The notes beneath the pieces are model-generated. The model worked only from the letters and a program-made list of their open reading frames with translations. It did no database searches and was not told the origin of the DNA. Of a stretch of DNA of 64,000 nucleotides, positions 33,663 to 64,000 are shown in pieces. Within the stretch, counting starts at the first letter, position 1; each line of letters starts with the position of its first letter. This stretch comes from Nocardia sputorum (GTDB taxonomy: Bacteria; Actinomycetota; Actinomycetes; Mycobacteriales; Mycobacteriaceae), in the NCBI RefSeq assembly GCF_027924405.1, contig NZ_AP026978.1, positions 5,828,001-5,892,000 of the forward strand, given 5' to 3'. The position numbers and the translations under genes were made by a program.

Positions 33663-34620
33663 ATGACGCTGCGTTTGCCGGACTGGCTCCCCCCGGTCGT
33701 AGTGATGTGTGTCGCCGGGCACTTCCCGCTGGGCGACGAGGACGCGGAACGACGCGCCGCCGATGCCTGGTCGGATCAGGCCGAATGGTGTCGTGGGCAG
33801 GCCGAATATCACGAAGCCAAGGCAAAGCCGCCCGAGGGCCAACACGGCGCCACCGTCACCGCGATCGCTGACAAGCACCGGAGCACGGCCGAACGCTTCC
33901 GACAGCTGGCCACCAATTGCGACAGCCTCGCCAGGCAGCTCTACGAGAGCGCCAACGCCACCGAGCTGCAGAAGATGGTCATCATCAGCATGGCCGTGAT
34001 CCTGGCCATCCAGCTGGCCCGGTGCGCACTGATGTTCGCGGCCGGTGGTCCGATCCAGGCCGCCATAGCGCAGATGGCGACCCGAACCGCGGCGCAGCGC
34101 GCGTGGATGAGATTCGTGGCATTCCTTTCCGGACGCGGTGCGGAACTGGCCGCGGAACGCGGCTCGATGGTGCTGCTGCGCAACGGAATCGTGATGGGGG
34201 TGGCCCTGGGCGGCGGCACCCAAGCCGGCGCCCAGGCGGTTCAGGTCGCCAAGGGCGATCGCGAACAGATGGATTGGACGTCGGTCGGCGTGGCAACGGC
34301 CGCCGGCGCTGCCGGTGGCTTGCTCGGCATGATGTTCGGACTCTGGGCAGGGCCGAAGGTCGCCACCATCGGCGCAAACGCCAACAGCACCGCCGGACGG
34401 GTGGCCCTGCAGCTCGCCGGCACCACCATGGTCGGCGCCGGAGCCGGAGCCGTCGGCGCTCTCGGCGGCACCGCCGTCTCGCTTGCGCTGTCGGACCAGC
34501 CGTTCAGCCGCAAGGCCTTCACCGAGGGCCTGATCCCCGGTATCGGCAGCGGATTCATCGGCGCGGCAGGCTTCGCGGCACAGGGAATGCGCAGCCGGGC
34601 ACCACTTCCCGACACGACCG
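33663..34620 (+). other. Giant protein: WXG100-like N-terminal domain and hydrophobic region
   Basis: MTLRLPDWLPPVVVM, then GHFPLGDEDAERRAADAW, is the start of the WXG100-like domain seen in CpnT-type type VII effectors. Residues 105-320 hold several glycine-rich hydrophobic stretches (MVIISMAVILAIQLARCALM, GVATAAGAAGGLLGMMFGLW, VGAGAGAVGALGGTAVSLAL), which could insert in membranes. Confidence 0.75.
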
Positions 34621-37600
34621 CCGTCCCCGCCGCCGCACCGGATGCCACGGCTGAAGCGTCGCCTGCTTCGCTCGTCGACGCACTGCGCTCGCATGGCATC
34701 GTCACCGCCGACTTCGATCCGAACAACCCCTCCCCCACCCATCAGCAACAACAAATCGACAATCTTGTGGCGCTGCTGAGCCAAGCTGGGGCCACCGCGG
34801 ACGCGCCAGCCCGTCCCACACTCCCATTGAACAATGCCGACTGGCAGCCCGCGAATCTGCCGAATGGGTTGGCCGACAACCTCAACCCGGCCAAGTCCGT
34901 CAAGCCACCCTCCGACGCCGTTGCCACACCCGCGGATCCGACCCCCGCAGGGACAACGCCGAAGGCTGACGGAGGCAATCAACCACCCGATGTGTCGCCG
35001 CCGAAGGAGTTCAAGCCGGCTCCGGAACAGCCGTTCTCCGTGCCGAACAACAGCATGGATTGGGAAGCACCCGCAGGCATGCCCGGCGCCCTGATCGACA
35101 ACGTCAATCCCGTCAAGACGGTCACCTTCCCCGCGGCCGCCATCGCGTCCACTGTCAACCCGGTCGGCGTGCCGAACATCGGGACGGATCCGACGTCGGC
35201 GGAGGCGCCTGGGTCACGGAATGTTCCTGCCGCCCAGTCGGATTCCGAGATCGGTGGCGCCGCAAAGGCTCCTGCCGCACAGGCAGATTCCGAGGTCAAT
35301 GGCACCGCAAAGGTTCCTGCCGAGGGGGAACTGCCTCCAGCACCGCACGACTCGGATAACAGCACCGCCGAGAACGCGGGCGCCGCACGGCAGACCACCG
35401 AACATGATCACCCTGCGGCCGGGCCCGACCACTCGGTGCGGCCACGCCCCATGGATACGGGCGAGGGCAGCGCTCGACCGGCCGATGCCACGCCCGGGTC
35501 GGCTCACGGCAACCGAGTCGGCTCCGAAAGCACCTCGTCGGCACCGCGTTCCACGCCGGAGCACGCCGCGGTGCCGGACAACGCCGCCGCCACGGCCCGA
35601 CCGCACCCCGGCGGCCGGGACACGGCGGGCGAGGGGCCGGCCGGGCGAGGCCGCGCCGTCGCCGATGCCCGCGGCGACGATCCGGCAGCCGGGCGAGGCC
35701 GCGCCATCGCGGAGGCCCGAGGCGACGATCCGGCGGCCGGGCCGTCGTCATCGGTTCGGCAACGAGGTGTCGCAGCGGACGAGGACTCCGGTCCGCGACC
35801 CGTCGCGGCCGATCCGCACGACGCATCGGCGCAACAGAGCCCGACTGCGCCGGCGACCGAGGGTCGGGGGGCACCCCGGGTTGCCGACGGGGCCACCGAT
35901 CCCGAACCGGCCGTGTCCGAGCTGGTACCGACGGTGGCACAAAAGGATTCGGTCGACGGCCTGTCATCGGACCACGACGTGTCCCCGAGTGCGACGATCA
36001 CCATCGACCCGTCGCCCGCTCCACAGCGCGGTGATTCCGGTCCGCGCTCCCCCGGCGGGGACAGGCTCGTGGACGCGGGCGGGCAGCAGCGGCAGACCGC
36101 GCAGCCGTCGGGTGGCCCGGCGCGACCGGCCGCCGGCGGCCAGCCCGGCGCACCCGTTGCCGGTGGTTCGCCCGCTGCAGCCGGAGGCAATCGGCCGCCA
36201 CGTGTGTCGGCCCCGAAGACTGCCGCCGCGGAGCGCCCTCCGGCCGTCGAACCGGTCGAAGGACCGCGCGGGCCGGCCGAGGACGGCCACAACCCCTCCA
36301 GGTCGGCGACCGCCCCCGACAATGACAACCGGAACACACCGCACGGCTCCGCCGAACCGGAGTCGGAGCATGGTCGCACAGCTGACGGCACCACAGGCGA
36401 TGAAACCGCGCGAGCCACGCAACCGGATGAGGTGAAGGCACCGGAGCACGCACGCGCGGCCGACGACAACGTGAATGGGCCACAGGCCAAGGATCATCCC
36501 GATGTAGTCGACGAGGCGGGAACATCGCAACCGAAGCCCGGCGAGTCCGATACCCGCGGAGACGATGTCCCCGGCGGTCGTGCGGGCGACGATGCCGCGG
36601 GTGAGCAGCAAGCGAAGACGAAATCCGATCACCCCGACGACACGGACGCGCGATCGCCCGAGTCCGAGACCTCTCGCACACAGAATGATTCGGATTCGCC
36701 GCCCACCGCTCGCGATGAGGACCCCGCCGCGGACGCGCGTGCGAGGGCGAGAGCCGAAGTAGAGCAGCGTAATGCGGCCGAGCGGCAGCAGAACGAGCTG
36801 GTGCGCGAACACCACCGGCAGCGTGTCGAAGCGGCGGCCGAGCGCGAGCGGGCCGCCCTTGCCGAGCTGCGGCGGCAGGAGAAGGCCGTACGGGTCGCGG
36901 AGGAGCATGAGCGGGCCACCCGCGTCGGCTTCGGCGACAAGATGCGCGATCTGTTCGGGTCGGGCACGGCGGAGGATCGGGTGGCCGTCGAAGCCGCGCG
37001 GGCCGCTCAGGAACAGCTCCGGCAGGCTCAGGCGATGTTGGCCGAGTGCCGGGATGCGTACGAGGCGGCGGTAGCCCAGCATGACGCCGCAGCCCACGCC
37101 AGAGCCCGTGACTTGGTCGAAATCTCGGACAACGCGGGTGTATCGCTGATGAACGACTACAAGGCGGGAAGGCTCATCGATCGCGAGGCCGTGTTCGAGG
37201 TGGTTGCCCAGGATCGGGTACGCGCGGCGCTGGATGCCGGTCGCGCGATCGGGGAGTTGCGAAAGCCGGGCAGTACGGCCGACGGTAGGAGCCCGTTGGA
37301 GAACGCATCACCGGAGGCGTTGGCCGACACGATGGTGCGGGGATCCAGGGAGGAACGCGTCGCGGCGATGACGGAATGGATTCGCCGGGGCGACGACCGG
37401 CATCGGCTGGTGCGTGAGACGCAGGCCGCGGCGTTCCTGCTGCTCGAGCACGGTCCGGTCGATATGAAGACCGGTGAGGGCAAGACCATTGTCATGGTGA
37501 TGAAGAAGGTGTCCGACGCCATCGATCACGGCACCGCACATGCATGGACCAGTAGTGATCTGCTGGCCGGTGAGCTGGCCGCTGAGTTGGACGCATTCGT

Positions 37601-40600
37601 GGTGCGGCCGGAGTCGGATACCGGGGTCGATGTGGTCCGGATGAATCAGGACGGTCCGCTGCCGGATCCGGTACCCGGCCGTAGCCGGATCGTCGTGGGC
37701 ACCAAAGAGGACTACCTGTTCCGCGCGTTGAAGGTCGCGGATTCGATGATGAACGAGCTCGCGGCCAGTGGCATGTCGCACCAGGAGGTGACGGCACTGC
37801 GAGAATTCCTCAACACGAAACCATCGATCGATCTGATCAAGGAGAGGCTGGATACCGCGGCATCCGACCACGGCCTCGACCTCCGGTACGACCCGTTCCC
37901 GGCGGGCAAGCTCACCATCGACGAATTCGACACCATCTTCGACGGCAATTCCGAATGCGTACTTTCCCCCGGGGCGGCGAAGGAGGCCACACCCGAGGTG
38001 GTCGCCGAACTGCAGGGAATCTGGAATCGGCTGACGACCGCAGAGCGCGAACACGGTTTGACGGCAGCGGATTTCAAGCGGCCGGAGAACACCCGAGGGA
38101 TGTGGGCCGCGGAAACGACCCCGGCGGCGGTGGCCAAGCTGGAGAAGGTGGCGGGTGGACCGGTCACCGACTCGGAGCTGAAGCTGTACGCCGATGCCGC
38201 CAACGCCCGCTGGGGGTTGGAGAAGGGCACGCACTACATCACCCGGGCGGACGACGGCGAGGGCGCGAAGATCGGCATCCTCGCTCACGAGACCAACGAC
38301 AAGGCGATGTGGGACAGGACGAAGTCGACCGAGGTGCGCTGGCAGGACGTCGGTCAGTTCGTCGACCTCAAGGAAGGGCTGCCGGTCCGGGCGAATCAGG
38401 AACATTCGCTGCGCATGTCGGATCAGCAGTTGATCGGCAGCAAATTGCTGTTCGATCCGTCTGGTTTGTCCGGGACCATGAAGGGCGTGGAGGGCATCAC
38501 CTACGACCTGTACGGCGTAGGGCCGGTGCCGGAGCTTCCGACTTTCTATACCTCGCAACGGGTCGTGGAACCGCCGAAATTCTACGAGAACACGCATGCG
38601 AAACTCACCCAGCTGGCCCGTGACATCGTGCGGGATGCCCATGTGGTCGACGGGGAGCAAACGGGCCGTGCGCAGTGGGTCGTGTGCATGGACAACGGCG
38701 AGATCCGGGGGGACCCGGATGCCGGGCGGATCGGACTGATCGACCTGCTCCGCACAGCGGCGAAGGAAGAACACGGCGAGGCATTCGAGCTGAAGTTCGA
38801 GGTGGTCGACGCGGAATTCTACGCCGAGCACGGCGGCAGCAATGCCGGCGCGGAGGCCCTGGTCAGGCAGAAGATCGAGGAATTCGGCGACAAGGGCACC
38901 ATCTACATCACCAACAAGGACGGCGGCCGCGGCGCCGACCCGACGCCGTCGCAGGAGGTGATCGATCTCGGCGGTGTCGACGTCAAGGTCAGCGGCGGTC
39001 CGTCGTACTCCGAGCGGGTGAACGACCAGGTCGATGGTCGTGGCGCCCGTGGCGGATCCGGCGACGACCGGGAGCACGGTGGCACCCCGGGTTCGGCGGT
39101 GCACTACGTCTCCCCCGAGGACTTCCTGGGCCGGGTCACCGACCACGGCGTCACGCGGCAGATCGTCCAGTACACGGAAGCCGTCAAGGCCCACCGGGCC
39201 GCCCAGGAACAGCACGAGGCCCTCAACACCGAGGCGACGCGCATCGAACTCAACAGGACCGAAACGGCGCTGCGAAACGCCGAGTCCGACCTGTGGAAGC
39301 ATGCCGTCCCGGCGATGAAGGACGCCGTCGAGCAGAATCAGCTCGCCTCCAAGTACGCGAGCGCCAACCAAGCCAACGCCCCACCCGCGGACGCACATGG
39401 CACCGCGCACCGGCAACCCCAGCAACCCCCTCCCCGATCCGCAGGGACCACGGCTCCGCATGCGACGCCGCACGCGCCTGCCGCCACCCACAACGGCGCC
39501 CCCCTTCCGACCGCCGCCGGCCTCGCCGCCGGGGCGGCATCCAACCTGGATTCCGGTAACCCACCGGTCGCACCCGCCCTGCGTGACGAGCACGGCGACA
39601 GCACCCTCCGCCACCTCCTGCAGGTGCTGGACGCACCTGGCGGACAGGCGGCCGCACCGTTGCTGCCGGTGGCGCAGGCCGTCCGCGACGCGGCATTCGA
39701 TCAGGTCGAGTCGCAAGGGCTCCCCATCGGCGCCGACGTCGCCGACCACGTGCGCGAGACCGCGCGGAATCTGTTGCAGAGGAGCCTGGATCAACTCGAT
39801 CCGGCGCAGCGTCAACTCGTCACCGACGCCGGGACGATGCTGCAACAAGGACGCAGGCTCGACGACGCGCACACCGCAGCCGTCGCCCAGTTGGTCGCGC
39901 AGGTACCGACCGCCCAGCCCGTCCTCGCGGCCGCCGCGGACACCACGGTCCCGTTCGACCAGCTGCCTGCCGGCGACCGCACCGAGATACTGCAGCGCGC
40001 GCAGCAGGGCGACCGGTCCGCAGCGCAGGCCCTGGACCGCCATTTCGGCCCCGCCACCGCCCAGGCCATGTGTGCCGTACTCAGCGGGAATGCGGAGCAC
40101 GGCACCCCACCAACGCGCATCCAGCTCCTGGCGCACGCCGTCGCCCGGGCCACGCTCGGCGCCGCCGAAGCCGATGGCTGGCAAGTCCCCCCGGGCGTCG
40201 ACATCGGCGACTGGCTGCTCGGCCGAGCGCGAAACACGTGGCTCGACAGCCTCAATCACCTGAATCCCGCCGTACGCCGACTCGTCAACGAAGCGCTCGA
40301 TCCCAGATCCCGCAGCGACGACCTCACCGACGCTCAGGTCACCCTGTTCGGTTGGGTCGCGCAGGAGATCGCAATAGGGGCGGCCGATTCGGCGGCCCGG
40401 CAACGGAAACCCTCGGCCGAGAGCCGCGACCGTGCGAACTCCGCGAGGACGGCCGAGGCCGACCGAAAAACCAAGCAGGCCATCGCCCGGCAGCTGTTCG
40501 AGACGTTCGACATCGAGGTGCTCGGCCTGGACAAGCCGGGGATCACCGTGGACACGGCTCTGTCGATCAGGAATGCGATAGTCGACGGTTTCGCGGCGGG

Positions 40601-58600: not shown

Positions 58601-61600
58601 GACGACGTCCTCGCCCTGGCTCACCAGCAGGGAACTCGAGGTGCTCAACCTGATCTACCAGGGTTTGACCCCCGCGGAGATCGGGCGACGGCTGGATGTC
58701 GACACGAAGGCGGTCACGAACTACCAGAGGAACGCGGCCAAGAAGTTCGGTACCACCGGCGCGATCCGGACGGTCCTGGCGGCCAAGCGGCAGGGGTTCG
58801 TCCACGACGGGAATCGACCACCGGCCGGTACCGTCCGCCTGTCCGGCGAGCAACGCCAACTTCTCCAGTTGATGGCCGACGGCCTCACGGATCAGGCCAT
58901 CGCCGAGGTGCTGGGGGTGGCCACGCTCACCGTCAAGCGCCGCCGAGCCCGGATCGGTGCCGTACTCGGCGAGACGAAGCGAACTCCGATGCTGATGAAA
59001 GCCCTGCGGCTGGGAGCCTTCGACGAAGCCGCGAGCGAAGGCACCGCGCCGAGCGCGCCCCGCAGACCGGACACCGTCGCCATTGATCTCGGCGACCTCG
59101 ACGAAGCTGCGCCGGTCACACCCCAACCGTCGCGCGCCGCTGGACCCGCGGAGCAGTCAGCGCAAGGCACCGCGACGCCCGGCGCCACCCCATGGGCTCG
59201 ACCCGGACAGAGCAAGACACCGCCGGGAACCGCAGCGCTCGATGCGAGCGTTTCACGGCCCGGTCCACTGCTGCATCGAGTCGGGTGGACACCTTGGAAG
59301 GCCACAGCGTCCCGTCCCGAGGCCGCGCGGAACGCAGCCAGCACTCGCAAAGAGGTGCTCAGGCGACTCGTGCAAGGCAAGACCTATAAAGAAATCGCGG
59401 CGGAACTCGAAATAACGCCGTGGGCGGTGCAGCGGCAAGCCACGTCGCTCTACGCCGGATTCGGCATCGAGGGGCGCAACGAGCTGGAAGCAGCGATCCG
59501 AGCCCGCCACGCCGGAAACACCGACCCCCGCAATCCGGCCGCGCCGACCGAGACCACCGATCAGACACCGCAGACGGACCCAGCGCGCCGCCCCGGTGGC
59601 ATCGACCCCGTAGCGATCGACCTCGGCGATGACACCGAGTCCGAGCATCCCGCACCCGCGCAGCCGAACACGCACGAAGCCCGGGACGACGCGAACATCC
59701 CCGAGCGGTGGCGCCGGGAACGTGCCTGGGATCAAGAGGTGATCACCGCGGTTCGCGCGGGCGACCTCGGCGCTTACCACCAGCTGTACGAGCGGTACTA
59801 CGGATGGGGTATCGCTACCGCCATGGAGGTTCTCGGCGACCGGTCCGACGCCGAGGACGTCGTGGCCGACTGCTTCGCCGACCTGCTCGTGAGGATCCGC
59901 CGAGGTGAGGGTCCACAGGTCAGTTTCGGCGCCTACCTGCGTACGGCCGTTCGTCACCGGGCGTACACCGCCAGCGCTCGCGCCGGCCGTCAGGTCCCCA
60001 CCGACGATATGGCGAAACTCGATCGAATCCAGCTGGGCGATGACCGAGCACCGGAGATCTCCGAGGACACCCCTATCGGTCTGGCATTCGAATCCATGCC
60101 GGAGGAATTTCGCACCGTGCTCTGGCTCACCGCGGTCGAAGGCTATTCCCCGGAGGAAGTAGCTGACCACTTGGGGTCTGCACGGGGTGAAGTGAAGGAG
60201 CTGATCGCTCGCGCACGTGCCGAACTGGGCCGGAAGTTCGCGGCGGAAATGCCGCAGCACGGCCCGCTGGTCAGGGCATTGGCCGCGCTCGCGGCCGACA
60301 ACGAAGGCCTCACCTCGGTGCTCGCCGAGGGCGGCGAAACGCTTGCGATGGATGACGAACGCCTGGCCCCGGATGTGGCCGTGATTCGAACAGCCCAGCA
60401 TGAGCGGCTCGAACTGCTCGGCAGCGTAGTTCGACGCCTTCGCCCCGGACCGCGGGAATACTTCGTCCGCTGGTTCATCGGGCAGACAGTGGCCGATATC
60501 GCGGCCGCCACGGGGCGCGAGAAGGACCTCATCCGCAAGCGGCTGCACAATGCGGTTCGCACCGTGTCGATGGCGTTGTCCCACGTCGACTCGCCCGCTC
60601 TGCGGCGCTCCGAACCGCATCCCAGCGGACTCACCGATGAGGAGATGTTGCTGCTGGTCGAGGCGGTCTGGGCGCACGACCGAGATCTGCTGGAACCGGC
60701 GACGGCGCTGGTAACCGACGCCGAGCAGGCAGTTTTCCAGCCATATTTCCGGCACGGTCGGACAGTGCCCGAAATCGCGACGGCGCTTGGCTGGCGGCCG
60801 AAGCGAGTTCGCCGCATGCTGCACCGCATCGCACGGCGCATAACCTCTACGCTCTCGCCGGAGTTCGTGGAGCGGTATCTGAGTGGCGGACCGCTCCGGC
60901 GGGCCACCCAGGCCGATGTCGCCCGGGAAACGGGAGTCAGCACGATAACTGTGAAACGAGTTCTCGCTGGGCATCCGGAGGCCGGACCGGAGACGATCGA
61001 GCGAATCCGGGCGGCCGCGCGCCGCCTCGGTGTGCGACGTGGACGGATCGGGATTGTCGCCGATGGCGACGAACAGACGTCGAATTCGCCGGTTCCCTCG
61101 GTACGCACCGATCACGATCGAGTGCCGTACCACCAGCGAGGTAGTGAGCTACAGCTCGTCCGCGCGACGTCGAAGAACGAGTTGCGGCGCCTGATCCCGT
61201 TCCTTTCCGAGGGAGACCAGAACGTCGCAACCCTGCTGCTCCTGGAGGGACTGCCCGTCTCCGTCACGGCGGAACGATTGAATCGCCCGGCAAGCTCGGT
61301 GCAACAACGCCAACATGACATCGCCGTCCTGCTGGCCGCGATGCTGTCGTCGGAGAATTGGGAACTACTGCTGGTCGAGGCGGTCCAAGCGCAGGAGCCG
61401 GTGATATTGGCTGCGTGTTTCCCACGGCTCACCCGTCTCCAGCAGCAGTATGCCGATCAGTATCTGGTACAGGGGCTTTCGACCCATGACATAGCGAGTG
61501 CCCGGGGCATCCAGCAGACGACAGTCAACAAGCTGCTGCGACGAATTGCCCACATACTGGCGGGAGAACTTCCGCCCACATTGGTGCGGCGTTATCTGCG

Positions 61601-64000
61601 GGCGGGCCCACTTCGTCGAGTGACGCTGATGGACATCGCCGTTCGGGCCGGAGTGACGGAGGGGACGGCACGCCGGGTACTCGCCGGCGGACACGCCGAT
61701 CCGAAGACAGAGCGGCAGATTCGGACGGAGGCCGCTCGGCTCGGATGGGCGAGTAGGCGTCCCGGCGTCGTGGTGGACCATCCCGACGAGAAGTCACCGG
61801 TCCCGGCGGTCCACGAGGGCACCGCCGACTACCCGCGTCGCGGCAGGGCGTTTCGGATCATCCGATCAGCACCACCGGAAGTGCTGACGGAATGCATCGG
61901 TCAACTTCCGCCGGGACTGCAAACAGGCGGCGCCCTGTTGTACTCCGACGAGCTGACCATCGAGGAGAAGTCGAAGGCACTGGGTTTGTCCCCGGCGCGG
62001 GTCGCCGCGCTGCGGCAGGCTGCCGCGCCACGGCTGGCGACGTTGCTGTCCGCCGGCGTGTTGCTGACCGACGGCTCGGCGATGTTCCTGATCGAGGCGA
62101 TCGCGGCGCACTACCCGGATGTGCTGAGGCCGTGCTACTCGCAGCTTTCACGCACCGAGTGGGAATACGCCGATCTGTATCTGGTGCAGGGGCTCTCGCA
62201 ACCCGAAGTCGCTCGAGCGACGGGCCGCAGCCAGAGCACCGTCAAAGGCGCGCTGTATCGGATAGCGCACGTGTTGGCCGGGGAACTCCCACCAGAGTTG
62301 CTGTCGCGGGTGCTGAGCCGAGGCCCGCTCCGGCGAGTGACGCTCGATGATGTGGCCACTCGGGCGCAGGTAAGCAAGGCACAGGCAGATCGCGTGCTCA
62401 ACGACCGCGGCGGAGCGAATCCCGAGACGACGAACCGGGTGCAGTCCGCCGCCACCGAACTCGGCTGGACGCAGCAGCGGCGCGGCATCGTGGTCGTGAC
62501 CGAGACGGGTGTCGAGCCGATCGAACCAGCGAGCGTGACGCCGACGGCGCGATCCACTACCTCCGATACGCAGCCGACGTCGACCGGTAACCGCATCGAC
62601 CCCGTCGCCATCGATCTCGGTGATCCGGACGAGACGGCGGGCAAGGAGCCCGCTGAGTGGTCCGCCACACCACAGCACCCGACCCGCAAACACCCGGTGG
62701 AGTTCCTCGGTCGACCCGAGGACGTCGGCGGGGACGCGGTATCGCGGTTGAGCCCGGCGGAGGTCGGTGAATGGCTGCGCGACGAACTGCGCCGACTGAC
62801 GGGCAATCCCTACGTCGAGGTCCAAGAATTCGACCGGCCCGACCTTGATCCGGAGACTATCCGTGAGATCGCCCGCGCTTTGGTCGACATGGCCTCCCAG
62901 CACCCGCAGGTCGAGATCGACCGGATCGACATCGGCTGGCTCTCGTCGAAGACGGGCGCAGCGACTATGTCGAAGACCGATCCCATCACCGGTTCCGTCA
63001 CAACCGAATGGATGACATTCAACGCCGACTTCGCCGCGAATCCGAACAAGCTCCATCGGTGGATTCAGGACCGAATCGCCTCTGGGATGGCGCATCCCAG
63101 CATGGCCGACCGTCCTGTGTATGCGATCGTCGTGCATGAGTACGGCCACATGCTCGACTACGCGGGACGGCGGGAGGCACGATACCGTGCCGAGGAAACG
63201 CTGTTCGATCATTACAAGGCAAATCGCCTGGGCAAGAATACTTACACGGCGTTCACGGCCTGGCTGCACCGTTACCTGACCGTCTACAGCTTCGACAAGA
63301 ACGGCAATTTCAATCCGACCGAGGCGTTGGCCGAGGCCTTCGTCGATGTCGTGCTCAACGGCCGCGACCGTGTCAACGAACCGGTGGGGTTGCTCTACGA
63401 CCTGCTGGTGGACTCCGTCGCTGCACACCGAACAACGGCCGACAGCGGCGAGGTGTACCACTCACCGCCCCCCGAGCCCGAGCAGGAAGTTACGCGGGTC
63501 ATCGGCCAGATGCGCGACCTGGAGAGTGCGCTCGGGCAACTGGCCGACAGCGCTGGAATGATCGACCCGACCGTGCTGCTTCATATCCGTGCGGAATTGA
63601 ACGTCCTCGTGGACGACCGGCTGGCAGCCCGCCCGGATGCCGCGCGCCGGCACGATCAGACAATCGCCACGCTGCGGGATGTGACCTCTCGCTCGGACCT
63701 CGCCGAGAGCGATGTCCGAAGGCTCGCCGAGATCGTCCCGATGAAACGCAGCCGAGTGTCAGGGTTGTGGGCCGGGGCGAATGATCGCTACGTCCAAGCG
63801 CTGCTTGCGGCGGCCCGTTCGCTACTCGCGGATCTCGACGCCGACCGGCCCTCGCGCGTGGCCGTGGACCTGGCTGTCAGCGAATTCTTCCAAGGCCTCC
63901 GTGCCGCGGTCGACGATGTGGCGCGGAAGTTCTACTCCGGCAGTGGCTCCGAGTGGACCGTACAACGCTTGCTCGACAACAGCCGTTCGATGCTGTCCGC
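33663..64000 (+). CDS. Giant multi-domain WXG100-like (CpnT-type) protein, continues past window end
   Basis: One uninterrupted frame from ATG 33663 to the window edge: 10,112 full codons with no stop. I checked the frame at twelve sites from 40.8 to 63.1 kb. Order: CpnT-like N-terminus (residues 1-100), hydrophobic segments (105-320), proline-rich linker, coiled coil (1020-1160), SecA-like ATPase (1240-1815), zincin 1 (2265-2620), LuxR array 1 (2830-3280), LacI-type pair, LuxR arrays 2 and 3 (3885-5010), three XRE folds (5170-5400), zincin 2 (5725-6170), coiled coils, two HATPase folds (6880-7150), PP2C (7760-8035), sigma/LuxR block (8110-8615), ECF-sigma module (8690-8860), three sigma4/LacI modules (8900-9615), zincin 3 (9700-9920). 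The ribosome site is weak. An internal frameshift in the assembly is unlikely, since motifs keep one frame throughout. Confidence 0.93.
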   Translation, partial: MTLRLPDWLPPVVVMCVAGHFPLGDEDAERRAADAWSDQAEWCRGQAEYHEAKAKPPEGQHGATVTAIADKHRSTAERFRQLATNCDSLARQLYESANATELQKMVIISMAVILAIQLARCALMFAAGGPIQAAIAQMATRTAAQRAWMRFVAFLSGRGAELAAERGSMVLLRNGIVMGVALGGGTQAGAQAVQVAKGDREQMDWTSVGVATAAGAAGGLLGMMFGLWAGPKVATIGANANSTAGRVALQLAGTTMVGAGAGAVGALGGTAVSLALSDQPFSRKAFTEGLIPGIGSGFIGAAGFAAQGMRSRAPLPDTTAVPAAAPDATAEASPASLVDALRSHGIVTADFDPNNPSPTHQQQQIDNLVALLSQAGATADAPARPTLPLNNADWQPANLPNGLADNLNPAKSVKPPSDAVATPADPTPAGTTPKADGGNQPPDVSPPKEFKPAPEQPFSVPNNSMDWEAPAGMPGALIDNVNPVKTVTFPAAAIASTVNPVGVPNIGTDPTSAEAPGSRNVPAAQSDSEIGGAAKAPAAQADSEVNGTAKVPAEGELPPAPHDSDNSTAENAGAARQTTEHDHPAAGPDHSVRPRPMDTGEGSARPADATPGSAHGNRVGSESTSSAPRSTPEHAAVPDNAAATARPHPGGRDTAGEGPAGRGRAVADARGDDPAAGRGRAIAEARGDDPAAGPSSSVRQRGVAADEDSGPRPVAADPHDASAQQSPTAPATEGRGAPRVADGATDPEPAVSELVPTVAQKDSVDGLSSDHDVSPSATITIDPSPAPQRGDSGPRSPGGDRLVDAGGQQRQTAQPSGGPARPAAGGQPGAPVAGGSPAAAGGNRPPRVSAPKTAAAERPPAVEPVEGPRGPAEDGHNPSRSATAPDNDNRNTPHGSAEPESEHGRTADGTTGDETARATQPDEVKAPEHARAADDNVNGPQAKDHPDVVDEAGTSQPKPGESDTRGDDVPGGRAGDDAAGEQQAKTKSDHPDDTDARSPESETSRTQNDSDSPPTARDEDPAADARARARAEVEQRNAAERQQNELVREHHRQRVEAAAERERAALAELRRQEKAVRVAEEHERATRVGFGDKMRDLFGSGTAEDRVAVEAARAAQEQLRQAQAMLAECRDAYEAAVAQHDAAAHARARDLVEISDNAGVSLMNDYKAGRLIDREAVFEVVAQDRVRAALDAGRAIGELRKPGSTADGRSPLENASPEALADTMVRGSREERVAAMTEWIRRGDDRHRLVRETQAAAFLLLEHGPVDMKTGEGKTIVMVMKKVSDAIDHGTAHAWTSSDLLAGELAAELDAFVVRPESDTGVDVVRMNQDGPLPDPVPGRSRIVVGTKEDYLFRALKVADSMMNELAASGMSHQEVTALREFLNTKPSIDLIKERLDTAASDHGLDLRYDPFPAGKLTIDEFDTIFDGNSECVLSPGAAKEATPEVVAELQGIWNRLTTAEREHGLTAADFKRPENTRGMWAAETTPAAVAKLEKVAGGPVTDSELKLYADAANARWGLEKGTHYITRADDGEGAKIGILAHETNDKAMWDRTKSTEVRWQDVGQFVDLKEGLPVRANQEHSLRMSDQQLIGSKLLFDPSGLSGTMKGVEGITYDLYGVGPVPELPTFYTSQRVVEPPKFYENTHAKLTQLARDIVRDAHVVDGEQTGRAQWVVCMDNGEIRGDPDAGRIGLIDLLRTAAKEEHGEAFELKFEVVDAEFYAEHGGSNAGAEALVRQKIEEFGDKGTIYITNKDGGRGADPTPSQEVIDLGGVDVKVSGGPSYSERVNDQVDGRGARGGSGDDREHGGTPGSAVHYVSPEDFLGRVTDHGVTRQIVQYTEAVKAHRAAQEQHEALNTEATRIELNRTETALRNAESDLWKHAVPAMKDAVEQNQLASKYASANQANAPPADAHGTAHRQPQQPPPRSAGTTAPHATPHAPAATHNGAPLPTAAGLAAGAASNLDSGNPPVAPALRDEHGDSTLRHLLQVLDAPGGQAAAPLLPVAQAVRDAAFDQVESQGLPIGADVADHVRETARNLLQRSLDQLDPAQRQLVTDAGTMLQQGRRLDDAHTAAVAQLVAQVPTAQPVLAAAADTTVPFDQLPAGDRTEILQRAQQGDRSAAQALDRHFGPATAQAMCAVLSGNAEHGTPPTRIQLLAHAVARATLGAAEADGWQVPPGVDIGDWLLGRARNTWLDSLNHLNPAVRRLVNEALDPRSRSDDLTDAQVTLFGWVAQEIAIGAADSAARQRKPSAESRDRANSARTAEADRKTKQAIARQLFETFDIEVLGLDKPGITVDTALSIRNAIVDGFAAGQEIKLDVVLVAPMVGNTGACIWTPEGIEKDAPTFMVLNENLFGDPERFRNTMRKAVQAGRLMAPTGDPAYDAVSHEMGHLQDRAARKGLYDEKPIAHLRDGAVQGKDYEDSKEARAFGFLYTHFAEFKKAGMLPPDLDFDDWLGQLDSYSSSRKKLKQAEEYNRILAGEESQGTEIGPYEPKMGDLAVFNPAEALAEANNAFGRTAPADRTHPAYVLQALLRDIPYFQVLREAEQRNALAQADYRGPVPAASGFGTSIASNGPSASLAARWRAMSLTARADYAEQQIAYLNPDTGFVLDELARLQAQYRAMVASTRDRTAQTPGQPGPQTDSSRAVPGRSDGRSAFPPEFWQQHSESHARAPVPAPIHLGDPDDAQPHRTQPDPDSPRSVQASGRAAFDSFRRQIMAIYVAGPSTERSDAVARALADAAPEDLRRALREAGLDPNQQRVLRQFWPGQSDRTAAAVLPAPGEDMDPLLWAPIRKFASAVARVRASGESPAQVVLEPDRTESDASIPDRGGLTPRELEVLRLSARGLSYPEIGPLMGISHKTVQSYARHACAKLRCPSVIPAVLAADREGWLDEPSGPHIDAEFAPDEVAILQLAANGLDNREIATELATTRYRVRTFMAALPGRLGVEGRLPGLLAAQRQGAFQPGDPHSAATRKHVDLSPREREVLDLVAAGRTDQAIGDQLGVTAATARGYRIQLQAKLGTSDHEELAARARSLESSAATARTVQLTESEALLLHLVTKGVPHETLAAALGLPNSGLDPVLARLADKIGTRGTIRVSAQRQEPSSQRERLEALAESLPGTSRDPAAVSWATVRAFRSRIATHPSELTGREPEVLRLAAQGLSLKAIARTLGGSHATVINELDSIAVKLGTPDRAVLLMAAQRAWSADHPEPIPEPTADVSLTSQETEVLRLVARRFTNPAIAAELGISVPLVKYIRRGLRAKLGIDDTAGLVAWALHSGIAVDDPADAPDPELQARVTDALRRATPGSHEASPIPADLDGSGETQSAKPAEAASDPAQTALAEHLGLPPGAVTRGAVRLALALVAEQTHAMPTAVTGIDGQAMRRWIRSQLELHADQEAATHEGALAELERRDGEESGLRDAADPEADPLDQNGFDNRRRALDQELRALLGLPDLSPPQPMTTGEVLAELYWITSLTDSPELEHLVAASETFLCATLEPPAAVPLDTVQIHTLRNQLARQVGVADDELTRTHAEVLAADETVAPQTRRLAERYLTLLPSRTEQKPNRADIARLAGVGDSYVSSVFNGRFGAKKPWHGETTQRVLAAAHQLGVPPDRADIAALTDPNFVTRRVRPARWIGNEFVPAHIKPQPPRDKLAEAAGTAKATVRDAVKGSGTPDDLRLVRSAADEIGFWYHPDGPMGAVDASTLSEGDRATTSGTRIDPVAIDLGDSDEPDTAVQRARQGDATAFNELRERYGRASLREVLARLGVPASPVGRDFRPLLQVAQELNRMAFGIAEAHRWRADAGTKPSEWLHSIVGGLVDGWFELNATQRKHVTEAVDAMRRGAAISLVQRGALNRLVDAGEQVITDAETHATDSSQQTDSGLTNRQFTVLELIAAGMTSPEIAEELGLSPGTVSIYATQVRQKLGARTRAEAVYIALSTGILPGSPRADGETPGREDLRLTSREIHVLARIANGDTSDDIAQDLEISPKSVDQLVGRVGRRLGARNRPGIVAAAVRIGDLPLADPADAVPGTGRIWLADYETNVVTRIANGETSKDIAQALGMSSLTVDEYLMRVCRKLRVHNRAAMIAVAIRTGLLPETTRAAVEVPGWTTAEIDLLTRIANGDTNADIADDLQISSSAVDKALALIRDKLGTRNRPQTVAVALRAGILPGADTVEAAPAPPANPAELREQYGLDTFGHVLSLLGVSARGGRRSERLARAVRLALEINDDVFRLSDSRSGGDIAQRLRESARELLEQKWFHPLRAKMLAVLRSDGITESDPRYGRLAELTVTELRSYLDQIGVTTRWVFLELADGLHHGRDIGSLSRQEKNSVLRIADITRAEEVSPPLPDASPQIASGASRTGREEPETSTVAETNSGTAHPGITEHEIAVLTLVAKGRSHRDIATVLALSDRQVGAAVRSIAVKLGTPHWAEMLEVARRRGIDVYADSPATPGRDRPRDDGAARFDAYRSALAHALAARTRELGSAAVLAEATADQIAQASRQLSSAERQLLAELRSRQPIPRDPSVRPAVAAARRLTSILVVEQHTSDIQLARLLAEATPDQLEEALGTLTDRQRKIIRAVFTRRLSVETMVSGLGYRDEATAKSFVMNALRQLGEHLAGIPVSAPPSDAHSSGAMPFGRERHTAGRSAVAQAPPGETAFERGRREAEEERRAAASGISEVEIDLLNKLLSRLDPLAPTTGRASGPDPVAIDLGDPDALDSESVESRTGRHGSTEFPTHRSSRDSASPRAALTDRQREILVLVAAGRTNQEIATLLGISVRTVEKHLDNLRTVYGPGSRWHLVSAAEQDGAIPLTARPARKPQSTSQDHRASEPPVPPANVNAPTARQQQILALVDAGLTNHEIATALDISKRTVEKHLDNLRKLYGSGSRARLAAIAEKEGALPRAGDSAEQHNWTAQDPDEKPSEEPRAKPPAPTARQLDILALVAAGRTTREIAAILGITGQTVKAHLDNAREVYGRGSRAQLAVIAEKNGDLPWVALSSSEHEFLEWYRARRADGSGRPIQSLTDYAEMNFLEPAQLHRWLEYAGIDPNGHDTAPVGTVPQPDGDTTTWHIELRRFLATTPARMDELVGAASGTWEAAERGERDLEVRHVRAALRRIPGARALYRDVARLYPALLTTDGAPAYPEGYARIGDYVVFRRTSHNLRRSQLAGRLMKGKNTVSRWESGESRPAKDDIVALLEATATEEDVLYDEISECYPHLPRGTILYPSPFDSESLGAYLRHFRHVNRLSWSEVGNIFGISAGAVQSLETGVRDPLDLTVVRIYRRALHRAGRWSDVATAWGLHHLPDLDSGSVPHPTDFDSIHDWIRSVRIFRGIPPLELARRIGRSDAWVGFTEDNHKPGVEDLRRIRDALEIPNDTLVSALMTYYSRTDAEERDPEEERLFWDLIATRPGSAEEKSIRNKIFERYIRLADEVAARRSIPAEHRNEYAQQAAVAILLATRNFVPPGSFFPAALMAAHYSVIRTRLELRYPGMKPQAQSILAKVDKYIRANRVGTANPDIAEISSALNLTREEVITALPLLRQISKDAPVEGRSGPGDINQTDEPQFTDVEFADKFDRALSGMENPGLAKRIVHLVRSADLSTDQAAAKLGITTQLVDQYLAEAEERIRAAFADEFGMADEPDGPSSPEPPSTVAATAAPRAPSPTAESNPLGRARVWKSGPTTVWKNYSAAALPESRALSTTSDAERGVKQAIAGDLYATYGIEVLGLEKLSVDMAMSVRKAIFDELEEADAICPDAVVVLPLESDTFAAAGRIFGDEPENYVLLNETYFGNPEYIRELFERNYRSGRLNAPTGDPVYDIVRHELAHLRAPKDTPREDGNFRYEHLAERRQAGALPGDSRFDRRHDYTDWLDAKAFGFLYQHFIEFRRAGALPPLTRFDDWLGQLNGYSRVVQTRRDGDRLFAAFDLWLNEFESRAAFDEWLRQSGLSRSDDGGAARARRRTYQHPWDADTDGTGWVDLKSVYDTWLGQLDSDTRSRILAGEDYGQQPTQLNLGTVDLGLGGNAVFNPTEALAEANNAFGKSAPKDFTHPVYVLQALLRGIPLAQVWREVRIRTDRANDREPVPAASGFHPSTSPDGVLARLARKWRDMRPDEQRALEAADTLMVVTGRDGRKLCAFDELARLVERQHAERYGATPRSHETAAVEPLPGFAEWEQPPTGELGQWTHHISFLAGQRADLLKDVRRLLVQTDGLAELLGLGAWAATGAGQAYLDVADLFTRIQDAQSRPGIDSERAAGLQTLLDHLEAVEQRCESLDTDLILARAQAEQLAVREVAAARGGLQFGPRGRIIDGVRLEVFEAPYQPVSLNEELGDELRQQGIPMITRQVRVDPTGRILVEELPEAVRAATTRRQDRLWQLSTAEPAVVPPGVQPARGARIAAVQDKLARTAAVRARVFPTPVDPNRMTPADESRQRKLLARMEMLTEELRNLLVQATADAVEPGDRIPSPQLLGRRDAVVAARERARAARDRWRDERDRLAALIDSATDESKSGIHAAHVSATGNTARFTREFHRLSEESARLTRLVFAAADADSPTQDGRESAQGVLRADAKAQSLVDAARTPDLLRVLRELLLDRLREKAGQLRSAVTPTPELRETTTELVEALEDVNAHQDALSPDRDPAPVDASDFGAVQPDPRNGAAPSAASSRLHRSAARPSGTPSEPPNNPQASSTDRTDESVSGARMPEADESAAAATHTPADVVAALENSLPGAVKQVLDQIDVELRSMTDVERRDAATRADLTRLPGWVVDRLAHEAKAQELALDTTSPEQRAEWQSRAERLDHELAHILGLPQPGTGWTDRISSDPLHHLRALTRRPDAPAELRHLVDTATRCLNLQDIAAAVEPLHGALADWPIAEHIDRAAAIAWELALQARADGGGTPEISAAIHGQPGRRWIEIHVGDDSRTLPARESDDRSGWRAVDLLDAHTETWGWVLPRNSGKRVWFKFFETADTSDPSQPPHDLILDLRIPQDSLQQGPGLARRAVRQRLRQAGHPDPYDLTVLVSDLVQNVYRYADQGDARVRIRLDGNTIRVGITDTSRGLPARQEATTQGTVSAAAFTDDQAAEWAETGIVADTHGFFLGMLEAMASAWGVILERAGGKTIWFEVPMPPPTAPGTSTDQPPNTPASDPDTPESIGIDLGAIDLTGLGLDLSTTSSDPDPTDANGGTRNRSTAPTDTDGRRPPTPGNRIDPVALALDPDEPETPDSTASTHQAPTDLNEPDPAPLPTIRELVADPGKLKTLRQEVDALRRQLLELSNGRADLSSAAAVDRLLGALLQLEREGKLNPRQARALPLVEEYREKSGLLDDAEQVRGQHREHKANAARGTDQPEGARPTTAHGPDPVAIDLDSDENPPADRQPGNAELHDTQQLGTLRAAVAARLAGTPEFSNDPVLNRAPGLIDELVAARRRPDTQVPVERLRLLEQFAHQTSAWLARADEAADANAAYEQGLREGTSAVLRARQDAAEIRLGSALAAVAEVWARTRPRTDTPIVTRPADHLRPGETERLRKVSETIFGEMVAAGAAVDEVSTKDAQQLAEDTRRYNTLRDMSQWLEELLTFAEQWDTARIGRERLSFLLDHFRAISELLAATELRDTAAAALAGATDRELRLAQAAETYGMADRAVRNIAEMLGEPQHLATATPPAAQPGAPVVWPGADGQPDFIAQTQPRQHDLTEPGPDESVSRDRTPGDRAAQPGSEHPRGHHVEERRGSDETAPRRYVEQNLTVEDLGAVAAASDRGRHAHNEDAFALIRVNVGGEEATALIVNDGLSRPKGGHRASAAAKAAAHDFVVAALREADRDGRIDPVAIVEGAVAAAQEAVLALPPESPADKPPATTIVVALLESGRLTVDWVGDSRAYWIPLDGGPAIQLTRDDSKVQDVLDVFDDTTREEAEHSPIGGPGLTHNLGRSLDGLKPREKARDIRGDGVVLAVTDGVWEPISPDDPEPVAAIVRQSLAEAPGDLGAVTRALVRAGIEAGTADDVTAAAGFLSAAKVDTPASTATDHDGPATPADRGADPVAIDLGPDEADPTPVGSRQPETTPPRNSPEHTGTRPDPQHGTADEANTAGRVGTPWDSAPGLRQVLEQHVASGRPELATALLRERFEAEIPRLTAEFGQRTAHDIADEVCATAIARLSRADRRNIQFWLNDIARQTIWHHRRIAGPWRSIREFVSECAQLEQTDPLVRVLAEARTTDVRRILEGLPRHRRDRLVRAFWPPTGMGTPPTAPDGTESDRDALWVAARQMATAVAAAANFPAQLPVRAASSTPRIARPSIPTATTSSPWLTSRELEVLNLIYQGLTPAEIGRRLDVDTKAVTNYQRNAAKKFGTTGAIRTVLAAKRQGFVHDGNRPPAGTVRLSGEQRQLLQLMADGLTDQAIAEVLGVATLTVKRRRARIGAVLGETKRTPMLMKALRLGAFDEAASEGTAPSAPRRPDTVAIDLGDLDEAAPVTPQPSRAAGPAEQSAQGTATPGATPWARPGQSKTPPGTAALDASVSRPGPLLHRVGWTPWKATASRPEAARNAASTRKEVLRRLVQGKTYKEIAAELEITPWAVQRQATSLYAGFGIEGRNELEAAIRARHAGNTDPRNPAAPTETTDQTPQTDPARRPGGIDPVAIDLGDDTESEHPAPAQPNTHEARDDANIPERWRRERAWDQEVITAVRAGDLGAYHQLYERYYGWGIATAMEVLGDRSDAEDVVADCFADLLVRIRRGEGPQVSFGAYLRTAVRHRAYTASARAGRQVPTDDMAKLDRIQLGDDRAPEISEDTPIGLAFESMPEEFRTVLWLTAVEGYSPEEVADHLGSARGEVKELIARARAELGRKFAAEMPQHGPLVRALAALAADNEGLTSVLAEGGETLAMDDERLAPDVAVIRTAQHERLELLGSVVRRLRPGPREYFVRWFIGQTVADIAAATGREKDLIRKRLHNAVRTVSMALSHVDSPALRRSEPHPSGLTDEEMLLLVEAVWAHDRDLLEPATALVTDAEQAVFQPYFRHGRTVPEIATALGWRPKRVRRMLHRIARRITSTLSPEFVERYLSGGPLRRATQADVARETGVSTITVKRVLAGHPEAGPETIERIRAAARRLGVRRGRIGIVADGDEQTSNSPVPSVRTDHDRVPYHQRGSELQLVRATSKNELRRLIPFLSEGDQNVATLLLLEGLPVSVTAERLNRPASSVQQRQHDIAVLLAAMLSSENWELLLVEAVQAQEPVILAACFPRLTRLQQQYADQYLVQGLSTHDIASARGIQQTTVNKLLRRIAHILAGELPPTLVRRYLRAGPLRRVTLMDIAVRAGVTEGTARRVLAGGHADPKTERQIRTEAARLGWASRRPGVVVDHPDEKSPVPAVHEGTADYPRRGRAFRIIRSAPPEVLTECIGQLPPGLQTGGALLYSDELTIEEKSKALGLSPARVAALRQAAAPRLATLLSAGVLLTDGSAMFLIEAIAAHYPDVLRPCYSQLSRTEWEYADLYLVQGLSQPEVARATGRSQSTVKGALYRIAHVLAGELPPELLSRVLSRGPLRRVTLDDVATRAQVSKAQADRVLNDRGGANPETTNRVQSAATELGWTQQRRGIVVVTETGVEPIEPASVTPTARSTTSDTQPTSTGNRIDPVAIDLGDPDETAGKEPAEWSATPQHPTRKHPVEFLGRPEDVGGDAVSRLSPAEVGEWLRDELRRLTGNPYVEVQEFDRPDLDPETIREIARALVDMASQHPQVEIDRIDIGWLSSKTGAATMSKTDPITGSVTTEWMTFNADFAANPNKLHRWIQDRIASGMAHPSMADRPVYAIVVHEYGHMLDYAGRREARYRAEETLFDHYKANRLGKNTYTAFTAWLHRYLTVYSFDKNGNFNPTEALAEAFVDVVLNGRDRVNEPVGLLYDLLVDSVAAHRTTADSGEVYHSPPPEPEQEVTRVIGQMRDLESALGQLADSAGMIDPTVLLHIRAELNVLVDDRLAARPDAARRHDQTIATLRDVTSRSDLAESDVRRLAEIVPMKRSRVSGLWAGANDRYVQALLAAARSLLADLDADRPSRVAVDLAVSEFFQGLRAAVDDVARKFYSGSGSEWTVQRLLDNSRSMLS
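35643..35738 (+). repeat. 48-bp tandem duplication in the giant gene's linker
   Basis: Two successive 48-base units encode GRGRAVADARGDDPAA and GRGRAIAEARGDDPAA, inside the Ala/Pro/Asp-rich linker between the hydrophobic region and the coiled coil. Confidence 0.85.
37380..39105 (+). other. Giant protein: SecA-like ATPase domain
   Basis: MKTGEGKT at 37,464-37,487 (residues 1268-1275) equals the SecA Walker A sequence and is preceded by the SecA-like LVRETQAAAFLLLEHG. Walker B is IDEFD at 37,917-37,931. SGLSGTMKGVEG (residue 1600) matches the SecA GMTGT motif; ITNKDGGRGADPTP (1749) matches SecA ATNMAGRGTD; VNDQVDGRGARGGSGD matches DNQLRGRSGRQGD. The SecA order is kept, so this is a divergent complete motor rather than a fragment. 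Confidence 0.82.
40455..41530 (+). other. Giant protein: zincin-type metallopeptidase module 1
   Basis: IEVLGLDKPGITVDTALSIR opens the module. HEMGH at 40,824-40,838 (residue 2388) is the metal-binding motif, and NPAEALAEANNAFG downstream offers the third ligand (Glu). This is the zincin pattern of polymorphic-toxin and phage-head-associated peptidases. Confidence 0.75.
42153..43500 (+). other. Giant protein: LuxR-type HTH array 1 (six units)
   Basis: Six GerE-type units in a row. The clearest are GLTPRELEVLRLSARGLSYP, DLSPREREVLDLVAAGRTDQ, ELTGREPEVLRLAAQGLSLK and SLTSQETEVLRLVARRFTNP. Units 2 and 4 (42.37 and 42.8 kb) are more degenerate. No response-receiver domain accompanies them. Confidence 0.85.
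44373..44760 (+). other. Giant protein: pair of LacI-type HTH units
   Basis: ADIARLAGVGDSYVSSVFNG (44.38 kb) followed by TQRVLAAAHQLGV has the LacI HTH plus hinge-helix pattern. A second, weaker unit starts at 44,637 (KLAEAAGTAKATVRDAVKGS, then VRSAADEIGF). Confidence 0.6.
44832..44873 (+). repeat. Inter-module linker motif, first good copy of a series
   Basis: RIDPVAIDLGDSDE. Further copies: 47,811-47,858 (GPDPVAIDLGDPDA), 55,329-55,370 (RIDPVALALDPDE), 55,785-55,823 (GPDPVAIDLDSDE), 57,810-57,848 (GADPVAIDLGPDE), 59,067-59,105 (PDTVAIDLGDLDE), 59,595-59,639 (GIDPVAIDLGDDTE), 62,589-62,633 (RIDPVAIDLGDPDE). Weaker copies lie at about 41,695 and 55,170. Each lies in a low-complexity stretch between folded modules. 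Confidence 0.9.
45318..47040 (+). other. Giant protein: LuxR-type HTH array 2 (five units)
   Basis: Four closely spaced units carry NRQFTVLELIAAGMTSPEIA, SREIHVLARIANGDTSDDIA, NVVTRIANGETSKDIAQALG and IDLLTRIANGDTNADIADDL, three of them sharing RIANG[D/E]T and ending with RxGxLP-type tails. A fifth (EHEIAVLTLVAKGRSHRDIA) follows at 46.85 kb after a non-HTH segment similar to 44.9 kb. Confidence 0.85.
47946..48690 (+). other. Giant protein: LuxR-type HTH array 3 (three units)
   Basis: Three very similar units (LTDRQREILVLVAAGRTNQE, PTARQQQILALVDAGLTNHE, PTARQLDILALVAAGRTTRE), each followed by a recognition helix TVEKHLDNLR or TVKAHLDNAR and an AEKxGxLP-like tail. They are about 270 bases apart, the clearest recent tandem duplication in the gene. 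Confidence 0.88.
49173..49860 (+). other. Giant protein: three XRE-type HTH units
   Basis: LRRSQLAGRLMKGKNTVSRW followed by ESG is a clear XRE fold (49.2 kb). LSWSEVGNIFGISAGAVQSL (49.45 kb) and IPPLELARRIGRSDAWVGFT (49.7 kb) follow at similar spacing, each ending in an RIxRAL or RIRDALEI-type helix. Confidence 0.75.
50835..52175 (+). other. Giant protein: zincin-type metallopeptidase module 2
   Basis: IEVLGLEKLSVDMAMSVRKA opens it; HELAH at 51,180-51,194 (residue 5840); KAFGFLYQHFIEFRRAG and NPTEALAEANNAFGKSAP match module 1 closely (AFGFLYTHFAEFKKAG, NPAEALAEANNAFGRTAP). The two are a duplicated pair about 10 kb apart with ligands intact. Confidence 0.75.
54280..55110 (+). other. Giant protein: tandem histidine-kinase-type ATPase (HATPase) folds
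   Basis: The second fold (from 54.65 kb) is complete: GLARRAVRQRLRQAG, N-box LVSDLVQNVYRYA (residue 7040), G-box VGITDTSRGLP, and a GKTIWFEV end strand, as in RsbW-type anti-sigma kinases. Just before it (54.28-54.62 kb) lies only the C-terminal half of a similar fold (VDLLDAHTETWGWVLP, GKRVWFKF). Confidence 0.7.
56937..57765 (+). other. Giant protein: PP2C-type Ser/Thr phosphatase domain
   Basis: SDRGRHAHNEDAF (Asn-Glu-Asp at residue 7780), VNDGLSRPKGG where PP2Cs have VxDGMGG, WVGDSRAYW, TRDDSK, VLAVTDGVWE and a final ADDVTAAAGFL. All metal-binding aspartates have a visible counterpart, so activity is plausible. Confidence 0.82.
57990..59510 (+). other. Giant protein: sigma-like helical block with three LuxR-type HTH units (array 4)
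   Basis: A helical block (58.0-58.45 kb, containing DVRRILEGLPRHRRDRLVRA and FWPP) precedes LTSRELEVLNLIYQGLTPAE, LSGEQRQLLQLMADGLTDQA and EVLRRLVQGKTYKEIAAELE. The block plus first HTH mirrors 41.76-42.35 kb (DLRRALREAGLDPNQQRVLR, FWPG), an internal duplication 16 kb apart. Confidence 0.75.
59730..60245 (+). other. Giant protein: ECF sigma-factor-like module
   Basis: ITAVRAGDLGAYHQLYERYY and DRSDAEDVVADCFADLLVRI are sigma region 2 patterns; FESMPEEFRTVLWLTAVEGY then SPEEVADHLGSARGEVKELI are region 4. About 170 residues, the size of a complete ECF sigma factor. Confidence 0.8.
60360..62505 (+). other. Giant protein: three tandem sigma4-sigma4-LacI modules
   Basis: Three successive copies of about 210 residues (near 60.4, 61.15 and 61.87 kb). 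Each has two sigma-region-4-like HTHs then a LacI-type HTH introduced by GPLRR: ATQADVARETGVSTITVKRV, VTLMDIAVRAGVTEGTARRV and VTLDDVATRAQVSKAQADRV. Copies 2 and 3 also share YLVQGLS and RIAHxLAGELPPxL. Confidence 0.75.
62760..63420 (+). other. Giant protein: zincin-type metallopeptidase module 3
   Basis: HEYGH at 63,135-63,149 (residue 9825) in VYAIVVHEYGHMLDYAGR, then NPTEALAEAFVDVVLNG. It differs from modules 1 and 2 and is the closest relative in the window of the degenerate domain in the 561-residue upstream protein. Confidence 0.78.

Follow-up and report, generated by a model that had tools for sequence, protein, structure and literature searches.

An 11,260-codon gene of Nocardia sputorum combines a type VII-like N-terminus, a SecA-type module and exchangeable cassettes and is a candidate polymorphic effector

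The 64,000-nt stretch of the Nocardia sputorum chromosome analysed here (the window; positions 5828001–5892000 of a one-contig genome of 7,431,165 bases, or 7.43 Mb) carries a giant gene on the forward strand whose reading frame is open from TTG 33630 or ATG 33663 to the window end. A first-pass annotation, made from the letters alone, had described a single continuous gene without a stop across 33663–64000, and this description holds. Reading on rightward in the genome sequence, as that annotation had advised, places the stop codon at window position 67443–67445 on the same contig, and the gene counted from ATG 33663 has 11,260 codons, encoding a protein of 1,215.7 kDa (1.22 MDa) with an isoelectric point of 5.5. 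It is preceded by genes for a WXG100-type partner and a YbaB/EbfC-family protein and followed by MerR/HEAT and radC genes. The motif positions listed earlier all fall in the frame, and each matches a feature: the SecA module (37.4 kb), HExxH zinc motifs (40.8, 51.2 and 63.1 kb), LuxR-type helix–turn–helix (HTH) units (42.1, 45.3, 47.9 and 58.6 kb), a HATPase domain (54.8 kb), a PP2C phosphatase (57.0 kb) and sigma-70 regions (59.8 kb). The coordinates of all features are collected in Table 1.

The frame is a real, complete coding sequence. It is not a chance opening, because the five alternative frames of the same 33.8 kb hold 68–217 stops each (longest open run, 1,194 codons) and the GC content at third codon positions (GC3) exceeds that at second positions in 74 of 74 sliding windows along the whole gene. 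Besides this codon-position bias, two further lines of evidence identify it as genuine coding sequence, namely purifying constraint and an open gene at the same place in four relatives. The pairwise ratio of nonsynonymous to synonymous substitution (dN/dS), calculated against up to four relatives as point estimates, lies between 0.15 and 0.64 and thus below one in every one of the 30 segments compared; these do not include short intervening stretches, and some segments have no counterpart in some relatives. The minimum is found in the SecA module (0.15–0.20), with values of 0.16–0.25 for the HATPase and 0.18–0.29 for the PP2C domain, whereas the Pro/Ala-rich stalk is among the least constrained parts; single high values elsewhere occur behind peptidase 3 (0.61) and at a LuxR pair (0.58). 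An orthologous open giant, with neither a stop nor an N, occupies the same chromosomal place in G122 (a single-contig genome of 7.72 Mb) and in the draft assemblies G106, G011 and G002, in each case in the order pyrimidine phosphorylase, sdhC, sdhA, sdhB, partner, YbaB, giant, radC and biopterin hydroxylase.

These orthologues also make an assembly artefact unlikely. A misjoin or collapsed repeats could produce a false fusion, and the repeated joints described below could mislead short-read assemblers, but the N. sputorum genome is a single contig, and the independent single-contig genome G122 shows the same locus with an open frame of 12,380 codons; we give this explanation almost no weight. 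A recombination trap, that is, a decaying fusion locus that gathers in-frame fragments and has no function as a whole, would fit the mosaic structure of the gene, its lower mean GC3 (0.775 versus mostly 0.8–0.95 in neighbouring genes) and the recognition helices of many HTH units, which look diverged by eye. However, the dN/dS point estimates below one in every segment largely refute it, no stop lies inside any SecA or peptidase match among the matches listed in Nocardia, and the operon and its place are kept in the four close relatives, which renders such a trap very improbable.

The N-terminus is type VII-like, as had been proposed, with a PF25547 match well above its cut-off, and residues 101–131 form the strongest membrane-like segment; besides it, the giant contains one isolated, marginal hydrophobic segment (residues 9459–9477). 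Of 7 related genomes searched, 5 have the full trio of partner, YbaB and giant, and in G056 it is kept without the flanking genes listed above in the stretches fetched. Four EccC-type ATPases score over their cut-off in the genome, so that a type VII machine is present, and one of the EccC genes, at 2.472 Mb, lies ~14 kb from a SecA-bearing giant of 4,265 aa. This protein is one of three further WXG100_2 giants in the same genome (4,265, 4,894 and 4,918 aa). A partner homologue lies upstream of one of the three (its WXG100 match, 18.2 bits, is below cut-off), and YbaB-family genes precede two of them. The C-terminal part of the partner resembles the metallopeptidase modules of the giant and lacks their HExxH zinc motif; it may be a pseudo-enzyme with a binding or guarding role towards the giant.

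Domain and structure comparisons both support the SecA-type motor named in the first-pass annotation, as the module has NBD1, PPXD (the peptide clamp) and NBD2 parts. Like the SecA and SecA2 translocase ATPases, it has the NBD1–PPXD–NBD2 fold, a GEGKT Walker A and a DE-D motif. Unlike them, it is embedded in a giant chain and only ~20% identical, and the structural match to most SecA chains ends at or before residue 590–639, the later C-terminal parts being absent from the model. With 26.8 bits against the SecA equivalog TIGR00963 (cut-off 800), it is by score not a SecA orthologue. Among named sequences, the closest homologues come from Nocardia, namely N. abscessus and Nocardia sp. NPDC004260 (94–95% over the SecA part) and N. 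araoensis, N. exalbida, N. amamiensis and N. gamkensis (95–96%). A separate observation concerns 16 diverged SecA modules in the alignment, of which 13 have GEGKE and 2 GQGKE as Walker A instead of GEGKT; this suggests that this branch has retained the fold but that its ATP hydrolysis may be altered or lost.

Table 1. Features of the giant gene and its upstream genes. Positions are those of the window; values beyond 64,000 were read on in the same contig.
Feature	Position (nt)	Strand	Remarks
NsdA-family regulator, upstream of the operon	28798..30339	+	Family match; GC3 0.66, unusually low
WXG100-type partner, 583 aa	31160..32911	+	WXG100 domain (match just below cut-off), Pro-rich middle, C-terminal part resembling metallopeptidase module, no HExxH
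YbaB/EbfC-family gene between partner and giant	32918..33499	+	PF02575, 44.5 bits vs cut-off 25.5
Giant reading frame, 11,260 codons	33663..64000, continuing to stop 67443–67445	+	Translation
WXG100_2 domain (PF25547), residues 8–146	33684..34100	+	42.5 bits vs cut-off 27
Strongest hydrophobic (membrane-like) segment, residues 101–131	33963..34055	+	Opens a Gly/Ala-rich stretch
Pro/Ala-rich, probably disordered stalk	34887..36746	+	dN/dS 0.45–0.64; on the whole least constrained
SecA module: N-terminal coiled coil, then NBD1–PPXD–NBD2 from ~37212	36747..39329	+	Motifs MKTGEGKT, IDEFD
Metallopeptidase module 1	40434..41549	+	HEMGH at 40824; lethal-factor-like predicted fold
LuxR-type HTH array 1, 6 units	42159..43499	+	
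LacI-type HTH	44379..44507	+	24.2 bits, below cut-off 27
Joint 1, DPVAIDL	44838..44858	+	
LuxR-type HTH array 2, 4 units	45330..46178	+	Further single unit 46845–47006
Joint 2	47817..47837	+	
LuxR-type HTH array 3, 3 similar units	47952..48668	+	
XRE-type HTH (HTH_31, best stretch)	49182..49328	+	
Metallopeptidase module 2	50760..52079	+	HELAH at 51180
HATPase_c (GHKL) domain	54753..55097	+	
Joint 3, variant DPVALAL	55338..55358	+	
Joint 4	55791..55811	+	
PP2C phosphatase domain	56976..57626	+	Stp1-type match below that family's equivalog cut-off
Joint 5	57816..57836	+	
LuxR-type HTH pair	58620..59003	+	Further unit 59352–59495
Joint 6	59604..59624	+	Degenerate copy DTVAIDLG at 59070
Sigma-70 region 2 and region 4	59784..60227	+	
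Sigma-r4-like HTH units, then LacI-like HTHs, repeated	60714..62471	+	
Joint 7	62598..62618	+	
Metallopeptidase module 3	62700..63599	+	HEYGH at 63135
Joints 8 and 9	64431 and 66411 (beyond window)	+	

Behind the SecA module follows a long series of enzyme and DNA-binding modules, among which the expected proteases and phosphatase are present as HExxH metallopeptidase modules and a PP2C domain. The 'kinase-type folds' of the first reading correspond to the GHKL/HATPase domain, which is not a protein kinase, and its 'dozens' of DNA-binding folds are many indeed, the count being 23 LuxR/sigma-r4-like HTH units at an independent E-value (iE) ≤ 0.01 or 21 at ≤ 1e-4, with a profile derived from repeats of the gene itself, plus the LacI and XRE folds. 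In LuxR array 3, visual inspection suggests that all three HTH units are intact. Further sigma-r4 and LuxR folds lie beyond the window, as does a C-terminal domain without a Pfam match. The giant has a fourth HExxH motif (HELAH, at 54114) that belongs to none of the three recognised peptidase modules and is also found in G106 and G002. Alignment of the peptidase matches 37 of 148 Nocardia genomes (E ≤ 1e-10), always in frames of at least 3,141 aa among the matches listed, and in a phylum sample it matches 1 of 396 genomes at E ≤ 1e-5, which is the N. sputorum genome itself. The small, repeated helical modules, the Pro-rich stretches and the great and variable length would also be expected of a cell-surface or wall-spanning giant, such as an adhesin or a contact-dependent stalk, with few active parts and with HTH and coiled-coil modules that serve mainly as spacers. 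The scarcity of hydrophobic segments behind the front end and the strong constraint on the SecA, HATPase and PP2C modules make this improbable.

Relatives carry other effector-like cassettes, with Gln_amidase, Abhydrolase_8, Bac_transf and APH matches in G106 and a Fic match in G011. Other Nocardia giants are annotated in the database, by precomputed domains or by name, with a deaminase of the YwqJ type, GNAT and an M3 peptidase, among others. G124 has two SecA-bearing giants, of 11,890 and 21,183 aa, ~64 kb apart (C1, ~1175732 and ~1239457), and the larger one gave five peptidase-module matches.

At many points a recurrent peptide, the joint (DPVAIDLG), separates one module from the next. Counting DPVAIDL with slight variants, the joint occurs 9 times in the N. 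sputorum giant and 8, 9, 9 and 11 times in the four relatives (46 in total), once in G056, and is absent from G116. At the DNA level, 8 of the 9 exact matches to the joint pattern in the whole genome lie inside the giant gene, and a looser pattern gave 8 matches within the window versus 0.12 expected. Cutting the giant at its joints yields ten pieces (0–9) with very different histories. Piece 0 (residues 1–3736) is covered to 100% in three relatives and to 78% in G106, and pieces 3 and 4 are found in all four (88–100%). Piece 1 is present in G002 (100%) and G011 (76%), piece 2 in G002 (98%), G122 (63%) and G106 (20%), and piece 5 in three relatives (82–100%, with 16% in G011). Piece 6 occurs only in G122 and G106, piece 7 only in G122 and G011, piece 8 only in G106 and piece 9 only in G011 (0–14% elsewhere). 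The order is shuffled as well, N. sputorum residues 3727–4744 corresponding to G002 6739–7756 and 4682–7182 to G002 4261–6764. Break points were taken from matches of ≥70% identity over ≥60 aa, with ends within 25 aa merged, and 44 of 122 lie ≤40 aa from a joint, against a mean of 6.4 in 2000 circular shifts (standard deviation 2.8, maximum 21); they are not independent, as one event may be visible in several proteins. Conversely, 38 of the 46 joints have a break point within 40 aa. Because all joints share one frame, recombination between any two of them keeps the frame open. The N. sputorum giant ends at a module edge, where G011 goes on with another joint-like peptide. Among close relatives, the front end is thus kept while joint-bounded cassettes are exchanged, dropped or reordered, a pattern like that of polymorphic toxins, which combine a conserved trafficking N-terminus with variable C-terminal modules.

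Giant SecA-bearing frames are common in Nocardia. The SecA query matches 80 of 150 genomes of the genus at E ≤ 0.001, and among the matches listed there are at least 46 distinct open frames of at least 10,000 aa in at least 33 of the 150; the frames of six of these relatives were read out. The largest frame among these matches, of 33,513 aa, belongs to G116, a single-contig genome of 6.42 Mb (C1 ~2509810–2610000 and upstream; 33,395 aa read out), and 18,222 aa scanned of it gave MFS_1-like and LacI matches alone. In an order sample, 6 of 397 genomes match SecA at E ≤ 1e-20, namely four Nocardia, the N. sputorum genome included, and two of another family. The latter belong to one genus and carry the match in frames of 16,768 aa (G216, C4 ~6251068–6252861) and 9,259 aa (G203, C2 ~69101–70303). 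In the phylum sample, the SecA query at this threshold recovered the N. sputorum genome alone (1 of 396).

We favour, at somewhat better than even probability, the interpretation of the giant as a type VII (ESX)-associated, cassette-shuffled polymorphic effector. Several observations weigh against it. The partner and YbaB proteins gave no match at 1e-8 at the G116 locus and at both G124 loci, one of the G124 giants having a GntR/aminotransferase gene upstream instead, and we lowered our estimate slightly because the upstream trio was not found there; by Pfam, G116 does have a YbaB-family gene upstream. Residues 1–500 of the giant contain no YxxxD/E signal, its hairpin has no W-x-G motif, and the WXG100 matches of the partner stay below cut-off (PF06013, 26.0 bits vs 27.3; TIGR03930, 20.7 vs 44.85). 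Foldseek gave no peptidase-fold match at E ≤ 0.001, the structural match being weak (Z < 8). No immunity gene was recognised downstream of the giant, where no search aimed at immunity families was made, and no standalone peptidase module occurs among the matches listed in the 37 of 148 Nocardia genomes, unlike in classical polymorphic toxins. Since 78 of the 122 break points lie away from joints, some of them within peptidase 1, exchange favours the joint but is not confined to it. Finally, DNA-binding arrays are an unusual, transcription-like cargo for an effector.

The same cargo lends some credit to a membrane-anchored cytoplasmic regulatory megascaffold, in which the hydrophobic segment would be the anchor, the sigma, HATPase, PP2C, LuxR and LacI modules would control transcription and partner switching in the cell itself, and the SecA part would remodel proteins locally. 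Most of the recognisable cargo indeed consists of transcription or partner-switch folds, the units of LuxR array 3 look intact, and at both G124 loci the search recovered neither the partner nor YbaB; together with G116, these loci led us to raise this alternative slightly. Lethal-factor-like peptidases, together with the Gln_amidase and Fic matches of relatives, are nevertheless of effector type, the cassettes vary freely among close relatives, unlike core regulators, and the WXG100-type domains point to export. We therefore regard the scaffold as a real but rather unlikely alternative.

For the effector, we infer secretion, a target cell and a role for the motor. As EsxE/EsxF do for CpnT, the WXG100 pair would carry the giant through a type VII machine, either as far as the cell envelope or across it. 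Powered by ATP, the SecA motor might pull on or unfold the polypeptide that trails behind it, be it that of the giant or that of the target; that the SecA part powers the giant's own translocation is a tentative proposal, which we doubt more than we believe even if the protein is an effector. The recipient cell is the proposed site of action for the cassettes, which comprise peptidases, a phosphatase and DNA-binding and sigma-like modules and, in relatives, glutamine deamidase and Fic; there, the HTH and sigma modules may interfere with transcription. The most far-reaching version, a genus-wide Nocardia class of type VII-linked, motor-bearing giants of 10,000–33,500 residues that exchange cassettes in frame at a dedicated joint, thread trailing cassettes across a membrane by SecA and carry a multi-warhead cargo with DNA-binding and sigma-like arrays aimed at the recipient's transcription, is speculative and, taken as a whole, unlikely. 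If the effector reading is right, a genus with opportunistic pathogens would devote as much as 100 kb to one exported protein rebuilt from plug-in parts, and two questions would become testable, namely over what distance a type VII machine can transport a chain of at least 1 MDa and whether a SecA motor can function while belonging to the cargo it moves. The joint also offers a clean way to study how very large genes recombine without losing their frame.

NsdA-family regulator and MerR/HEAT genes were each matched in G106 alone among the relatives, the former over a length of 43 aa, and the NsdA-family regulator is probably outside the giant's system.

The first-pass statement that the protein matches no known architecture was too strong, since SecA-bearing giants are common in Nocardia and a giant multi-domain toxin-like chain is already on record, namely SACTE_5178 of Streptomyces sp. 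SirexAA-E, a 13,652-aa actinobacterial multi-toxin with lethal-factor-like peptidases (Zhang et al., 2012; PMC3482391). As far as its description there goes, SACTE_5178 resembles the N. sputorum giant in joining several effector or toxin domains in one chain, lethal-factor-like metallopeptidases included, while a SecA motor, HTH/sigma arrays, PP2C, HATPase and a fixed joint are not mentioned for it. Export of CpnT in Mycobacterium tuberculosis needs the WXG100 partners EsxE and EsxF (PMC7810871), and the layout described is similar, in that one or more WXG100 partners precede a long protein whose N-terminal domain is directed to the envelope and whose C-terminal part is the effector. The likeness drawn here is one of operon layout, and the giant differs in having many modules versus one toxin, a YbaB gene in between and no recognised immunity gene. 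SecA-like domains have also been described in predicted effectors of Amoebophilus (PMC3482391) and in Wolbachia phage WO (PMC5062602), in other bacteria and likened here by description alone, where they likewise belong to predicted host- or rival-directed proteins. The giant frames of Omnitrophota (PMC10066038) are similarly of unclear role; some have adhesin-like domains, and the account consulted does not mention a WXG100/SecA design. No paper combining these features was found in a partial literature survey, and, set beside the portions of these sources considered here, the SecA motor, the HTH/sigma cargo, sizes up to 33,500 codons and the joint-bounded exchange of cassettes appear to be new.
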